NCBI RefSeq assembly: GCF_003054045.1
Contig: NZ_QBKH01000007.1
Span: forward strand, 124,001 to 188,000
Direction of reading: 5' to 3'
Source: Sphingobacterium faecium
GTDB taxonomy: Bacteria > Bacteroidota > Bacteroidia > Sphingobacteriales > Sphingobacteriaceae
DNA: 64,000 nt
Part shown: positions 50,730 to 56,875 of the stretch, piece after piece
How positions within the stretch are numbered: position 1 is the stretch's first letter
Layout: each line of letters opens with the position of its first letter
The notes under the pieces: model-generated
The model's database searches: none
What the model was told of the DNA's origin: nothing
The model's input: the letters and a program-made list of their open reading frames with translations, nothing else
Program-made: the position numbers and the translations under genes

Positions 50730-53700
50730 CTATTCTGCGCTCACAGAGAATTCTGCAGCAGAAGCAAAGTCTTGTCCGTTTTGAGAACTTAATGCTGTAA
50801 AACGAATAAAACGCCCTTTTACTGACTTTATCAATGTGACCGTTTTCGGTTTTCCATTATTTTCAAAATTTCCTTCCGCGATAGGATCACTCCAATTTTT
50901 ACCATCACTGCTTATTTGCAATTTATACCCTTTGATATTACCATTACCACCACCTTGACGCGGAGTATACGTAAATGCTTTGATGGTTTTAATGGCATTC
51001 GCATCAAAATCAATCCAATGTGGATATTGCGCCACTGTAACCGAATACATCGAGTGCCATATGGTACTTGGATCACCATCTAATACATGAGAAGCTTCGC
51101 CCTCTCCCGTTTCTTCACTGGAGGCAAAAACGACCTGCATCGGGATACTTTCAATCTTAGGAAACTCAAAAGAAGCTTTCAATTTTTCATTTCCCTGAGC
51201 CCAAGCGGTCACGATACCGCCCTCACGTAAGTTGACAGGAGATTTGAATAGTTGTGGTTTCCCTTTACCAATAGTATAGTACAATGCTGCAGATGCCTGC
51301 TCACTTGCGATATGTAAATCACCGTTACGACTTCTCGAAACTGAGATTGGCATATCCCCAGCTAGAGAGACTTGAGATTTTTGACTATAATCTTGTTTGG
51401 AGACAGGACGAATGATAAATCCAAATGATGTTGATTTAGCTTTAACACGATCTTGCTCCAATGGAGGTCCTTGTCCACAACTATTTCCACCTAAACCAGT
51501 AACTGCAGCATCTACATGCAGATGTGTGCCCGAGCTTTTTGGTAATTTATAGGGGTGACTCGCTAACGTTAATTCCATCTCACTCCAAGGTAATGCAGAA
51601 GTTGACATATGATCTTTAGCAATAAATACCACACCACTTCCAGCAGCATCTGTTAAAGCAGTCCAACGCACCTCTTCATTATTGCTCATACTTTGAGGAT
51701 TCGGCCATGGAACAAATTGATCTTTAACGGTGCTCTTATGCAGTTCAATATGTTGTGCAGTTTTACGATCTGCATAGTTATTGATAGGACCTCTTCCGTA
51801 ATAGGTGTAGTTGCTATATTGTTCAGGTAGCTGTAGGCTATAACCTAATCTAGCCAGCGCAAAAGTTTCATCATTAGAAGTCACGTTTGCCGCTAATTCG
51901 AGCGAACCATCTGGGTACACTGTCCACACCTGATTCGTTGTAAACTTAAAGTCATGAGCACCAAACGGTCTATCTTTATGTTCTTCAATCGTGTAAGTAC
52001 CAGAAGTACCACCATGGATCGTCGCCGCATGGGGAGCTTGAGACTCGACCATAAACGACAAGACAATCGCTCCATCCGGTCTTGTGTACATCGAATTGGA
52101 TAACGCTTTATGTTTTAGATTATGCAGCCCTTTTTGAAACCATTGTTGGTAAGCCCAATTATCATTATCGACAGGCGCACGGAAAGCATCTAATTTAGGA
52201 CCTTCTCCATCACGAATCACTTGTTTGCCGGCATAGGTCAAGCTATATATACTTCCATTTTCAGTATCAAATTTGATGATAAAATCAGTGCCTTTAACAA
52301 CTTTTAGTTTTTGTTCATCAACAAGATGCAATTTACCTTTAGTCTGGACCTCAGCAATGGATGATCTTCCTGTCGCTGCTTTTACAAGCAACTGTTCCTC
52401 CATTTGTACATATCCTTTAGGAGCCCATAATTGATCCTTAGCCAATAAGAACTGTACTTTAACAAAGTATTCCGACTGCTTGTTGAATTTTTCAATATCC
52501 AAAGGTAAGGTAATTACCTTTTTCTCACGTGCAGCAATTACATCACCTTTCCATACTGGCATAGGTTTTTGCACCTCTACCCCATTTTCATATAAAGACC
52601 AAACGATATCATAATCAGCCAAAGAAGTAAAATAGTTCTTATTAAAGATCTCCACTTTACCCTGTATGATATCAATAGCTTTTACACCTACGTTCTGGTA
52701 CACTTTCTTCACCTCATAATATTGCGGTTTAGGTTTCATATCAGCGAAAATCAATCCATTATTGACAAATGTGCCATCATTTGGCTTATCTCCAAAATCA
52801 CCACCATAAGCCAGGAATTTTTCACCAGATTGTTTATCATAATAATACATCGCTTGATCGATCCAATCCCAAGTTGCACCCCCCATAAAGAAATTAGTCG
52901 ACTCAATGGCTTCCCAATAATCAATCAGATTACCTGATGCATTTCCCATCGAATGCGCATATTCCGAAATATGGAAGGGGTACTTCATCTTGAACTGCCC
53001 TTTTACTGCCTGACGCACCCATTCTATGGAAGGATATTGGTTAGAACCGATATCAACAATACTGTTATTTCGTTCATATTGAACAGGCCGCGAAGTGTCA
53101 AATTTTTTAATCGCATCATATGCCGCTACAAAATTGTTTCCAGGACCAGCCTCATTTCCTAATGACCATAATACAATGGAAGGATGATTTACATTGGCAT
53201 GGATCATCTCCAAATTACGCGCGACGTGAGCATTCTTCCACTCAGGAGGATGTGATAGAGAAGCATCTCCATAATAGTATTCATGACTTTCAATATTAGC
53301 TTCATCTTCCAAATAAATACCATACTTATCACAGAGATAATACCAATAAGGATCATCTGGATAATGCGAATTACGGACATGATTGATATTCGCTTTTTTC
53401 ATTAAGATGATCTCTTTTTCCATCTGTTCATGAGTCACCACTTTTCCTTTCTCCGGATTAGACTCATGACGGTTGACACCTTTAAGTTTTACAGTCTTAC
53501 CGTTTAAATAAAAATAACGACCTGCCAATCCAAACTCATCGTCTGAAGCTTTGGTATCTTTGATTTCTACTTTGCGGAAACCAACATAAGTTGCAGTTGT
53601 TTCTAGTATTTTATTTTTACTATCCTTCAATTCAGCGACCAAGGTATACCGATATGGACGCTCAGCTGACCATTTGTTTGGATTATCAACCTGCAAAATT

Positions 53701-54773
53701 GCTTCCACAAGAGATGAGCTATTGGGATTCACATCGACAATACGAGTCGAAACCAGATTGGCTTGAATAGCCTTGTTCGCATCACTATACAACTCATTTT
53801 CATATAAACTATAGGCTATTTTAAGTCCTTTCACTACCTTTTTGTCTTTATTTAGAATTTCAGACTTAATAGCCAGTGTTCCATGCTGATAGTGGGCATC
53901 CAGATCAGGAATAGCAATTAAATCACGGATTTGAACCTTTGGTTTTGATGTCAACGCAACGGTTCTAAATATGCCTGGTAGTCGAAACATATCCTGTGCT
54001 TCTATAAAAGAAGCATCTGAATTACGATAAACTTCCACAGCAACCACATTTTCACCTTTCTTATTCAAATAATCCGTGATGTTGAAAGAAGCCACATTAC
54101 GTGAGTTTTTGGAAAAGCCGACATATTTTCCATTGATCCATAAGTAAAAAAATGAATCTACTCCATCAAAATTAATATAGATATCACGACCATCCCAATT
54201 TGTAGGTACCGTAAACGATCGTCGATAGGATCCAACTTCATTGCGATATATATAAGTTGTCCAATGTTTTGGAGGAGTACGCATCACCCCGCCGCGCCAA
54301 TCATCCACCTTTACCTGATGTTGAAATATGACAGGTTGGTTGACATAAATAGGCACACCGTACTTGAGTGTACCATCCTTTTGAATGCCCGCAATGTTCC
54401 AACTCATCGGCACACCGACATTATCCCAAGAGGAAACATCAGTTTTAGGATCAAAAAAATTCTTAGGCCTTTCATCCGGAGTCTTTACCCAATTAAATTT
54501 CCAAGTACCATTGAGTGATTGCCAATATGAGCTATTTTCAGGTAATACCTGACGTGCACTATGCGCATCTTGGAAGGAGAAAAAATAAGCATGTGGCTGT
54601 TCTTTATTGAGAGCCAGATCTTGTGGCGATTCCCACTCTTTCCCTGTAGGGATAGTCTCGACTCCATAACGAAACCCTACAATCGGATCTCCGATTTGTG
54701 CGTTCGATTGGAAGGTCGATGCGAATAAAACTGTCATTACACAGCTGATCCGCATAGATAATGATTTGATCAT
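50730..54773 (-). CDS. Beta-galactosidase, GH2, with C-terminal accessory domains
   Basis: This large exported enzyme splits terminal beta-galactose from glycans. After a signal peptide (SCVMTVLFASTFQSNAQ) the GH2 domains run from about residue 60: sugar-binding domain, immunoglobulin-like domain, catalytic barrel and the beta-galactosidase small-chain domain. The acid/base Glu541 is in SLGNEAGPGNN and the nucleophile Glu604 in FHISEYAHSMG. Residues about 1145-1205 resemble the chitobiase/hexosaminidase C-terminal domain, and about 1215-1345 are an F5/8 type C (CBM32-like) module with LDGDPSTIWHSMYS. The 1347-residue length exceeds E. coli LacZ for this reason. It is transcribed alone; no SusC/SusD pair is near. 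Confidence 0.94.
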   Translation of the reverse strand: MIKSLSMRISCVMTVLFASTFQSNAQIGDPIVGFRYGVETIPTGKEWESPQDLALNKEQPHAYFFSFQDAHSARQVLPENSSYWQSLNGTWKFNWVKTPDERPKNFFDPKTDVSSWDNVGVPMSWNIAGIQKDGTLKYGVPIYVNQPVIFQHQVKVDDWRGGVMRTPPKHWTTYIYRNEVGSYRRSFTVPTNWDGRDIYINFDGVDSFFYLWINGKYVGFSKNSRNVASFNITDYLNKKGENVVAVEVYRNSDASFIEAQDMFRLPGIFRTVALTSKPKVQIRDLIAIPDLDAHYQHGTLAIKSEILNKDKKVVKGLKIAYSLYENELYSDANKAIQANLVSTRIVDVNPNSSSLVEAILQVDNPNKWSAERPYRYTLVAELKDSKNKILETTATYVGFRKVEIKDTKASDDEFGLAGRYFYLNGKTVKLKGVNRHESNPEKGKVVTHEQMEKEIILMKKANINHVRNSHYPDDPYWYYLCDKYGIYLEDEANIESHEYYYGDASLSHPPEWKNAHVARNLEMIHANVNHPSIVLWSLGNEAGPGNNFVAAYDAIKKFDTSRPVQYERNNSIVDIGSNQYPSIEWVRQAVKGQFKMKYPFHISEYAHSMGNASGNLIDYWEAIESTNFFMGGATWDWIDQAMYYYDKQSGEKFLAYGGDFGDKPNDGTFVNNGLIFADMKPKPQYYEVKKVYQNVGVKAIDIIQGKVEIFNKNYFTSLADYDIVWSLYENGVEVQKPMPVWKGDVIAAREKKVITLPLDIEKFNKQSEYFVKVQFLLAKDQLWAPKGYVQMEEQLLVKAATGRSSIAEVQTKGKLHLVDEQKLKVVKGTDFIIKFDTENGSIYSLTYAGKQVIRDGEGPKLDAFRAPVDNDNWAYQQWFQKGLHNLKHKALSNSMYTRPDGAIVLSFMVESQAPHAATIHGGTSGTYTIEEHKDRPFGAHDFKFTTNQVWTVYPDGSLELAANVTSNDETFALARLGYSLQLPEQYSNYTYYGRGPINNYADRKTAQHIELHKSTVKDQFVPWPNPQSMSNNEEVRWTALTDAAGSGVVFIAKDHMSTSALPWSEMELTLASHPYKLPKSSGTHLHVDAAVTGLGGNSCGQGPPLEQDRVKAKSTSFGFIIRPVSKQDYSQKSQVSLAGDMPISVSRSRNGDLHIASEQASAALYYTIGKGKPQLFKSPVNLREGGIVTAWAQGNEKLKASFEFPKIESIPMQVVFASSEETGEGEASHVLDGDPSTIWHSMYSVTVAQYPHWIDFDANAIKTIKAFTYTPRQGGGNGNIKGYKLQISSDGKNWSDPIAEGNFENNGKPKTVTLIKSVKGRFIRFTALSSQNGQDFASAAEFSVSAE

Positions 54774-55111
54774 ATTGAATTATTAAATAGAGGTTGTATA
54801 CAAAAATATAAGCAATATAATGAAATACAAGTCGCTACAATTAATCATTCGATTGCGTAAAATTTCTATGTATAAACGGAACTGTTTCAGTTACTTCAAA
54901 AAAATAGCTAGAAAATACGGATCAAACTAAAGGGGCTTGCTATCCAATGTAATCTTCACTCATACCAAAACGCTCTTTTTTTCGTTTAAAAAATTTACGC
55001 TTATCAAAAAAAAAGAGTAGGTTTGGCCTGAAAGTAGAATGGTTTTTTCTACGAAACATCATAAATATTAAACTCGTTGGGTTACTATTAGTTATATTAA
55101 GGTATTAATAG
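54774..55111. other. Divergent spacer holding a possible 40-codon gene
   Basis: This 338-bp stretch separates the beta-galactosidase gene from the sigma factor gene. It holds a 40-codon frame on the minus strand (54940-55062). The remaining DNA is AT-rich; no exact TAnnTTTG box was found for either flanking gene. Confidence 0.6.
54940..55062 (-). CDS. Candidate small basic protein, 40 residues
   Basis: A frame from ATG 55062 to TAG 54940 gives a 40-residue basic peptide. Its end reads RKKERFGMSEDYIG and its middle is rich in Phe, Lys and Arg (FFFDKRKFFKRK). It is divergent to the ECF sigma factor gene and in line with, but 166 bp upstream of, the beta-galactosidase gene. The non-random C-terminal sequence suggests a genuine gene, but no family is recognised, no clear promoter is seen and chance cannot be excluded. 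Confidence 0.4.
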   Translation of the reverse strand: MMFRRKNHSTFRPNLLFFFDKRKFFKRKKERFGMSEDYIG

Positions 55112-55681
55112 GTGAGTAAGATCAGTAAATCAAATAAGCTCCAGAGTGATGAGCAAATCATAGCCGGTATTCAATCGGGTAGTAGTATTGCACTAGATGC
55201 GATATATGAATTATACTACCCCTCTATTGCCCACATGATTTATCAAAATAACGGAAGCGAAGATGAGGCAAAAGATATCTTTCAAGAAGCAGTAATCGTG
55301 CTTTACGACAAGATTTCAAAAGGTAATTTTGAATTAAGCAGTAAGCTTAAAACTTATCTTTATTCGATTTGCAGAAGACTTTGGCTTAAGCAGTTAAATC
55401 GTGCAGGTTTTGGTTCAGTAGACATCCGAGGTTACGAAGATTCGCTACCAGATAACGATGATATTGAGCAACATCAGGAGCTTGATAAAAAGTTTGATCA
55501 AATGGAACATGCCATGTCCCTTTTAGGAGAACCTTGCAAAACCATCCTTCATGATTTTTATATCCAAAACCGCTCGATGCAGGATATCTGCGAGAAGTTT
55601 GGATATACGAATACGGACAATGCCAAAACTCAAAAATATAAATGCCTGCAAAGATTGAAAAAACTATTTTTCACGCAGTAA
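55112..55681 (+). CDS. ECF-type RNA polymerase sigma factor
   Basis: The protein has sigma70 region 2 (residues about 20-90: SIALDAIYELYYPSIAHMIY and EDEAKDIFQEAVIVLYDKIS) and region 4 (about 125-185: EPCKTILHDFYIQNRSMQDI and TQKYKCLQRLKKLF), without region 3, as in the ECF group. The start is GTG. It is 19 bp upstream of a membrane protein with an anti-sigma-like N-terminus, so the two probably form a sigma/anti-sigma pair. The target promoters are unknown. Confidence 0.9.
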   Translation: MSKISKSNKLQSDEQIIAGIQSGSSIALDAIYELYYPSIAHMIYQNNGSEDEAKDIFQEAVIVLYDKISKGNFELSSKLKTYLYSICRRLWLKQLNRAGFGSVDIRGYEDSLPDNDDIEQHQELDKKFDQMEHAMSLLGEPCKTILHDFYIQNRSMQDICEKFGYTNTDNAKTQKYKCLQRLKKLFFTQ

Positions 55682-55700
55682 CGAAATAGCATAACAAACA

Positions 55701-56819
55701 ATGAGTATGATGAGTCAACAAGAATTTTTTGAATTAGCAGATCGCTATCTCAGAGATGAAATGGTAAAAGAAGAGCGTTCTTCTTTTGAATCTTTCTGTG
55801 CAGAAAATCCTTCTTTCTCGGCACAACTAACGCAACACCGTGAATTTCTTAATAATTTGAAAGAAACTCAAGCTCGCGTAGATTTTAAGCAGCAACTTGC
55901 ACAAACTGCTAAAGGATATCATCAATCCCACCATCAAGCTCAGGTGATCCCGATGAAGCAAACAAAAATTGTTTCTTTATGGGCCAAATTGAAAGCAAGT
56001 TCACTTGTAGCAGCAGCTGTAGCTGTAGTAGCCGTATTTTCAACACTATGGATTTCAGGCTATTATAAAAACATTGATAAAGCCAACACAGACTATAGTG
56101 CATTAAAACGCGATATGAACAATGTGAAGAAAGATGTCAATGAACATAATGCTGCACTTAAAAGTATCAACAATAAGTCTACTAAAGCAAATGAAGCCTC
56201 TGCTAGCCAATTTGGAGCCACAGGTTTTATGGTTTCCAATAACGGTTATGTGGTTACAAATTATCACGTAGTAAGTGGTGCCGATTCTATTTACTTACAA
56301 AATAATAAAGGAGAATCTTATAAAGCACAAGTGATCCATTCAGATGCAGCCAATGATTTAGCGATCTTATTAATAGAAGATGTTAATTTTAAAAGAGGTA
56401 AGGCCCTGCCTTACACGTTTAAAACAGGAGCTTCTGATTTAGGAGAAGATATTTACACCATAGGCTTCCCTCGTGATGAGGCAGTTTATGGTCAAGGATA
56501 TTTGAGTTCTGCCACAGGATATGCCGGCGATACCATCGCATATCAAATCTCAATTCCGGTGAATCCCGGAAATAGTGGCGGTCCAGTTATGGATACAAAA
56601 GGAAATGTTATCGGAATCATCTCCGGTAAACAAAGAGGCATCGATGGAGCTGCATTTGCGATCAAAACAAAATCAATCTTAAAAGCTTTAGATGAAATTC
56701 CTGCAGACTCCCTACAAGGACAGGTAAAATTAAATAAGAAAAACATGCTTTCTGGTCTTTCACGAACAGAACAAATAAAGAGATTACAAGATTATATATA
56801 CATGGTTAAGGTGTATTAA
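55701..56819 (+). CDS. Membrane serine protease (S1C) with anti-sigma-like cytoplasmic domain
   Basis: Domain order: cytoplasmic part (residues 1-97) with a helical, anti-sigma/zinc-finger-like arrangement (QEFFELADRYLRDEMVKEER), one membrane helix (about 98-119), a coiled linker (YSALKRDMNNVKKDVNEH), and a periplasmic trypsin-like domain. The triad is complete: His189 in VVTNYHVVSG, Asp219 in AANDLAILLIE, Ser292 in VNPGNSGGPVMD. There is no PDZ domain, unlike DegP. It follows the ECF sigma gene by 19 bp. A model is that the N-terminus holds the sigma factor and the outer protease senses or cleaves in response to envelope stress; that is inference. Confidence 0.85.
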   Translation: MSMMSQQEFFELADRYLRDEMVKEERSSFESFCAENPSFSAQLTQHREFLNNLKETQARVDFKQQLAQTAKGYHQSHHQAQVIPMKQTKIVSLWAKLKASSLVAAAVAVVAVFSTLWISGYYKNIDKANTDYSALKRDMNNVKKDVNEHNAALKSINNKSTKANEASASQFGATGFMVSNNGYVVTNYHVVSGADSIYLQNNKGESYKAQVIHSDAANDLAILLIEDVNFKRGKALPYTFKTGASDLGEDIYTIGFPRDEAVYGQGYLSSATGYAGDTIAYQISIPVNPGNSGGPVMDTKGNVIGIISGKQRGIDGAAFAIKTKSILKALDEIPADSLQGQVKLNKKNMLSGLSRTEQIKRLQDYIYMVKVY

Positions 56820-56839: not shown

Positions 56840-56875
56840 AAAAAGGGATCAATATTTATTATTGATCCCTTTTTT
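56840..56875. terminator. Convergent terminator between the protease and peroxiredoxin genes
   Basis: AAAAAGGGATCAATA pairs perfectly with TATTGATCCCTTTTT around TTTAT, flanked by A- and T-runs, usable from both directions. Confidence 0.87.

Follow-up and report, generated by a model that had tools for sequence, protein, structure and literature searches.

A predicted one-chain anti-sigma factor and serine protease paired with an ECF sigma factor in Sphingobacterium faecium and related Bacteroidota

In the sigmaE system of Escherichia coli, the anti-sigma factor RseA is a protein of its own, distinct from the protease DegS, whose PDZ domain senses OMP tails. The proteobacterial rpoE/algU-mucA-mucB-mucD operon encodes a sigma factor, an anti-sigma factor and an HtrA protease together, each from its own gene, MucD being a soluble protein with a PDZ domain. 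To our knowledge, no sigma-binding N-terminus has been described for MarP-family or other membrane-anchored HtrA proteases. We also know of no serine protease domain in the self-cleaving or RIP-processed anti-sigma factors, i.e. those of the FecR/FoxR type and RsgI.

Within the Bacteroidota, the Dma and EcfO-Reo systems of Bacteroides and Phocaeicola have a tether and an outer-membrane-spanning part (a beta-barrel in Dma) and no protease, and their regulons include surface lipoproteins (NigD) (PMC13088901, PMC13114119). Brevibacillus HtrAw, a membrane-anchored protease with a trypsin-like domain and a PDZ domain, cuts off its own membrane anchor intermolecularly on meeting unfolded substrate, and its authors took autoprocessing of this kind to be frequent in HtrA proteases (PMC5359297). 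Only 6% of Bacteroidetes ECF factors have a class I anti-sigma domain nearby, compared with 32% on average (PMC7406223). Part of this gap may be explained by anti-sigma families, the present one among them, that are too divergent for such searches.

The locus described here lies in a 64,000-nt stretch (the window) of the S. faecium genome (contig NZ_QBKH01000007.1, positions 124,001 to 188,000), where an ECF sigma factor gene is followed after 19 bp by the gene of a membrane protein (table 1). A preliminary description of the window, made from its letters, had proposed that a sigma-binding segment and a sensor protease may be joined in this protein. The coordinates, start codons, intergenic gap and protein lengths given there proved exact on re-reading. 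The first gene had been called an ECF sigma factor, and its product matched TIGR02937 over residues 27-184 with 74.8 bits (cut-off 42.9), which confirmed its assignment to the ECF (sigma-70 group 4) factors. The second protein is single-copy in the genome, the only further match being a 516-aa HtrA-like protein (L002). A literature search found no paper on a fusion of an anti-sigma factor with a protease of the trypsin type, though ECF group annotations may contain a mention of one.

Table 1. Features of the sigma factor operon (positions in the window)
Feature	Position	Strand	Basis or details
Predicted autoregulatory promoter of the ECF factor	55079..55108	+	GGGTTAC 55079-55085, 16-bp spacer, GTATTAA 55102-55108, ending 3 nt ahead of the GTG
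ECF sigma factor gene	55112..55681	+	189 aa, GTG start; TIGR02937 5.7e-21, Pfam Sigma70_r2 1.1e-8
Gene of the predicted anti-sigma/protease membrane protein	55701..56819	+	372 aa, ATG start
Cytoplasmic helical anti-sigma-like domain, residues 1-97	55701..55991	+	hhalign, AlphaFold, weak Foldseek matches
Single membrane helix, residues ~98-120	55992..56060	+	one hydrophobic peak in all 89 distinct orthologues
Periplasmic coil/linker, residues 121-168	56061..56204	+	conservation profile; invariant L135; candidate self-cleavage region
Trypsin/HtrA-like serine protease domain, residues 169-335	56205..56705	+	Trypsin_2, PDB matches, catalytic triad
Conserved C-terminal tail, residues 336-372	56706..56816	+	conservation profile; position of the PDZ domain in DegS
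Likely terminator	56845..56875	+	inverted repeat GGGATCAATA/TATTGATCCC, then a run of T, as read from the sequence

Orthologues of the membrane protein are widely distributed. In the order-wide sample a match was found in 201/201 genomes, and in 200 of these it was essentially full-length, with an E-value of about 1e-75 or better. A second family, taken to be the Chitinophagaceae from the named relatives, had essentially full-length matches in 112 of 119 sampled genomes, and in a wider sample of the phylum 42 of 395 genomes matched at 1e-20, and in 29 of these the match extended over the greater part of the chain. Named carriers are Sphingobacterium, Pedobacter, Mucilaginibacter, Chitinophaga, Hymenobacter and relatives. 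In some Chitinophagaceae (G676:C10, G674:C14, G606:C22 and G657:C4) there is also a second, more divergent match, which covers only the coil, protease and tail part.

The preliminary description had made its proposal depend on two points, the conservation of the gene pairing and the similarity of residues 1-97 to anti-sigma domains, and the first of these held in several families: a sigma factor gene lay directly upstream on the same strand in 99 of 99 full-length loci (some of which are duplicates). Many relatives have overlapping genes, or hardly anything beyond the stop codon between the two. The conservation of the orthologues and of their pairing is not a matter of chance. Where it was sampled (Sphingobacteriales, Chitinophagaceae, and Hymenobacter and its kin), the pair of sigma factor and anti-sigma/protease protein is near-universal, and it can now be given a candidate partner, promoter and regulon.

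The periplasmic part of the protein contains a trypsin-like domain (Trypsin_2, 6.6e-25, residues 173-306), for which the PDB matches were DegP, MucD, AlgW, DegS and HhoA, with E-values down to 7.8e-18. The residues H189, D219 and S292 (codons 56265-56267, 56355-56357 and 56574-56576) were invariant in 37/37 aligned orthologues, and a PDZ domain was found neither by the domain search of the 372-aa protein nor among the top families of its orthologues. A trypsin-like domain with an intact triad and without PDZ, preceded by one membrane helix, had been read from the DNA beforehand, and both features were upheld, the hydrophobic segment before the protease domain being single in every distinct orthologue.

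In the 37-member alignment, the protease domain is the best conserved long region (2.93 bits), conservation of the linker is not strong (1.91 bits), and residues 353-372 of the tail (56757-56816, ending RTEQIKRLQDYIYMVKVY) reach 2.99 bits. On the basis of this profile, the C-terminal tail is the best candidate for a control element in place of a PDZ domain. The whole protein has one cysteine, located in the anti-sigma part, so that the protease domain cannot contain a disulfide switch.

Described families with a related architecture were considered. As in DegS, a membrane anchor and a trypsin-like domain with an intact triad were found, but membership was rejected because a PDZ domain was not found and TIGR02038 gave 67 bits against a cut-off of 423. 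The best NCBIfam match was the MarP model NF033740 (2.9e-26), and the membrane-anchored trypsin-like domain is common to both; membership in this family was also rejected, the score being 92.4 bits against a cut-off of 250 and only one membrane helix being present. A barrel of the Dma type was ruled out, as the C-terminal part consists of the trypsin-like domain and a short tail.

The functionally nearest systems are RseA/DegS and, inside the phylum, Dma/Reo. An ECF factor, a single-pass anti-sigma protein (here predicted), a periplasmic protease of the trypsin/HtrA type and an encoded M50 site-2 protease (G000:C1:638565-639818, 8.9e-60) are shared with the E. coli sigmaE-RseA-DegS-RseP system, whereas here the presumed inhibitor and first protease form a single polypeptide, which has no PDZ domain and carries a conserved tail of 37 residues in that position. 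Joint encoding of sigma factor, anti-sigma factor and HtrA protease is shared with the algU operon, in which, unlike here, the genes are separate. With Dma/Reo the protein has in common its phylum, an N-terminal anti-sigma domain (here predicted), one membrane helix and an unusual extracytoplasmic sensor; the targets reported for those systems are NigD proteins, whereas the targets predicted here are PG1828-family lipoproteins (see below).

Taken together, the locus is rather probably a one-chain envelope-stress switch resembling RseA plus DegS, in which an inhibitor and a site-1-type protease are fused and which, under autoregulation, drives envelope lipoproteins. Without stress, residues 1-97 would hold the ECF factor at the cytoplasmic side of the membrane, as domain similarity and pairing suggest. 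A periplasmic cue would activate the trypsin-like domain, which may then cut its own chain, or that of a neighbour in an oligomer, in the coil at about residues 121-168 between membrane and protease. By analogy with RseA, the shortened membrane fragment would be cleared by the M50 site-2 protease and cytosolic proteases, and the freed sigma factor would transcribe from the sequence GGGTTAC-N15/16-GTATTAA, i.e. its own operon (positive feedback) and the genes of PG1828-family lipoproteins. The autoprocessing of HtrAw is a precedent for the proposed self-cut (PMC5359297). An extracytoplasmic cleavage that precedes intramembrane proteolysis would be shared, under this model, with the FecR/FoxR-type and RsgI anti-sigma factors (PMC9249621, PMC12203970).

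It was also considered that the anti-sigma function is genuine but the first cut is made by another protease, the trypsin domain being a sensor of misfolded proteins or an anchored stress effector. This would fit with the separate HtrA-like protein in the genome, with the fact that no cleavage site was identified in the chain, and with the situation in proteobacteria, where the HtrA gene is often a separate effector in the rpoE operon; among 68 distant HtrA loci, 21 had an ECF gene in the vicinity, in most cases some 2 kb upstream of the HtrA gene and in no case immediately adjacent. We nevertheless regard it as unlikely, given the invariant triad, the strong conservation of the protease domain, a physical fusion that is kept across families, and the ability of HtrA enzymes to cut their own membrane anchors (PMC5359297). 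If the fused switch is real, the RseA/DegS pathway would here be reduced to its simplest form, a single chain that is both inhibitor and first protease. With this layout, cleavage in cis could be told from cleavage in trans with a single point mutation (S292A) and one reporter.

The proposed inhibitory function depends on the N-terminal part, for which AlphaFold (residues 1-100) gave a pLDDT of 86.6, about 97 in the core, and three helices (residues 6-17, 23-35 and 37-81), in line with the cytoplasmic helical segment of the preliminary description. A classical anti-sigma family, the members of which adjoin their own ECF genes, was gathered from relatives and its profile was compared with that of the N-terminus by hhalign. 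The two profiles matched with 93.7% probability (E 1.9e-7) over the motif ERYLxGEMxxxERxxFExLRxxNPE, while reversed and column-shuffled control profiles gave no match; with other hhalign settings the value for the true pair was 65% (E 8e-6). A Foldseek search of the N-terminus against 350,542 PDB chains returned 16 matches, all weak (E about 4 and up), six of which were chains of the SigK-RskA, AlgU-MucA and SigL-RslA complexes, with SigK-RskA and AlgU-MucA chains, at weak E-values, in the first two ranks.

Direct sequence searches were less informative. When PDB sequences were searched with the N-terminal profile, the top matches were a fusion protein and nuclear receptors, and no anti-sigma chain was among the best 60; a phmmer search of the PDB with the N-terminus of a classical anti-sigma factor gave no matches. 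The model NF052375 (classical anti-sigma) scored 21.2 bits with the whole protein and 22.7 bits with residues 1-133, far below its cut-off of 100 bits, and among 37 orthologues it matched 15, and an anti-sigmaE model matched five, likewise below the cut-off. Matches of Spectrin, DUF948, phage scaffold and similar Pfam families to the helical parts were under the cut-off and were set aside as helix/coil noise. A classical NF052375-family anti-sigma factor is also encoded in the S. faecium genome, beside its own ECF gene (L186, G000:C2:399568-400317).

The evidence from profile comparison and predicted fold that residues 1-97 are remotely homologous to anti-sigma domains is good but not conclusive, and with clean controls the second point on which the preliminary description had relied also stood. 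From this similarity and the gene pairing, we infer that residues 1-97 bind the partner sigma factor. In some relatives both genes lie in the same frame, and reading the single stop as a residue, as a modelling device only, gave one chain of sigma factor and N-terminus. For the chain from one relative (L005), AlphaFold gave a pTM of 0.75, with 36 of 297 residues at pLDDT below 50, suggesting a packed arrangement of the two parts. In a fold search the model matched ECF factors, with an rmsd of about 13 Å to anti-sigma-bound and about 20-25 Å to most holoenzyme-bound structures. It showed no close superposition on solved sigma/anti-sigma complexes (TM not above 0.26) and is therefore a hint rather than a proof of docking.

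As the similarity is remote, and as an autoregulatory promoter would by itself explain co-transcription, the protein might instead be a membrane-anchored quality-control protease of the HtrA type, with an N-terminus that has nothing to do with sigma binding and a sigma factor that merely drives its transcription. Several observations make this even less likely than a first cut by another protease, namely the profile-profile match with its clean controls, the enrichment of anti-sigma complex chains among the fold matches, the sigma factor gene that is never separated from the protease gene, and a cytoplasmic helical domain, needless for a plain anchor, in nearly all orthologues.

Alignment of the sequences upstream of the sigma factor gene revealed the motif GGGTTAC-N15/16-GTATTAA, which was found ahead of the operon at 82 of the 89 orthologous loci, compared with 0.02 expected from shuffled sequences. 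In S. faecium the operon itself has the sole exact match; matches with two mismatches were dismissed, as their total of 25 sites was exceeded by the 72 of the reversed control. The 61 genomes of the order contained the motif 208 times and its reversed control 19 times. Between GTATTAA, the putative -10 box, and the start codon, which is almost always GTG, the distance is 3 nt in 41 of the 82 loci, Sphingobacteriaceae included, and about 9-13 nt in many others. Where it is 3 nt, a leaderless or nearly leaderless sigma factor mRNA is predicted.

Many genomes have several additional motif sites close to the operon, spaced at 300-400 bp and as a rule pointing away from it; the first box is often followed by CCTTTT. 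The genes downstream of these sites encode lipoproteins of 60-90 residues, whose repeats are rich in D-S/T-A/T-V. Among 94 distinct exact sites in the Sphingobacteriales loci that were read, a small lipoprotein gene follows at 49 and the sigma factor gene at 34, a proportion that is biased upwards because the presence of the motif or the operon guided the choice of loci. The same arrangement of motif and lipoprotein was seen in Chitinophagaceae. The promoter motif of the operon, which also precedes arrays of PG1828-family lipoprotein genes, is newly found here; the preliminary description, while supported as to the unit of sigma factor and protease, had missed both the promoter and the lipoprotein targets.

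In S. faecium the two best matches to the PG1828 family (NF050142, cut-off 50 bits) scored 56.6 and 47.8 bits, i.e. above and just under the cut-off. Their genes (G000:C3:106241-106423 and 106601-106792) are not linked to the operon; two of the genome's four motif sites with one mismatch are located ahead of them, at distances of 41 and 44 nt, and the other two such sites are at C5:435304 and C11:102983. The products (L285, 2206-2424 and 2569-2793) have 72 and 74 aa, a shared signal peptide and DSAxxxV heptad repeats, which recall the alanine-zipper lipoproteins of the Lpp type.

At PG1828-family loci sampled from genomes with the switch, the motif was present in 4/4, while it was absent at the PG1828-family genes of six out of six sampled genomes outside the range of the system (L333-L336, L338 and L342), five of which were listed without a homologue at 1e-20. 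Several of these PG1828-family genes have a housekeeping-like TATCTTTG box, which suggests that the lipoprotein gene has been rewired to, or away from, this sigma factor. The motif links the operon to the PG1828-family genes, and the sigma factor is accordingly a predicted driver of their transcription. That GGGTTAC-N15-GTATTAA serves a different sigma factor or is the binding site of a transcription factor, with the lipoproteins outside this regulon, is quite improbable, although the 5.3-Mb genome has 39 sigma-70 region 2 matches as candidate readers and a motif ending only 3 nt before the GTG in Sphingobacteriaceae is an unusual geometry. Against it, the sole exact site in the genome belongs to the operon itself, the arrangement of two boxes around a 15-16 bp spacer is classic for ECF factors, and the PG1828 genes sampled from lineages without the system have no motif.

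Many Bacteroidota from soil and water appear to have a fused switch that controls its own genes and tiny envelope lipoproteins. In a wider reading, which we put forward tentatively, this would be a widespread one-protein device of the phylum, i.e. an anti-sigma factor with its own site-1 protease, triggered to self-cleavage by stress, with the tail replacing PDZ and with tiny Lpp-like lipoproteins as the main output. The predicted output offers an entry to the control of small envelope lipoproteins in these bacteria. The divergent neighbour of the operon (50730-54773) encodes a beta-galactosidase of family 2, which has 1347 aa and an F5/8 type C domain at its C-terminus.
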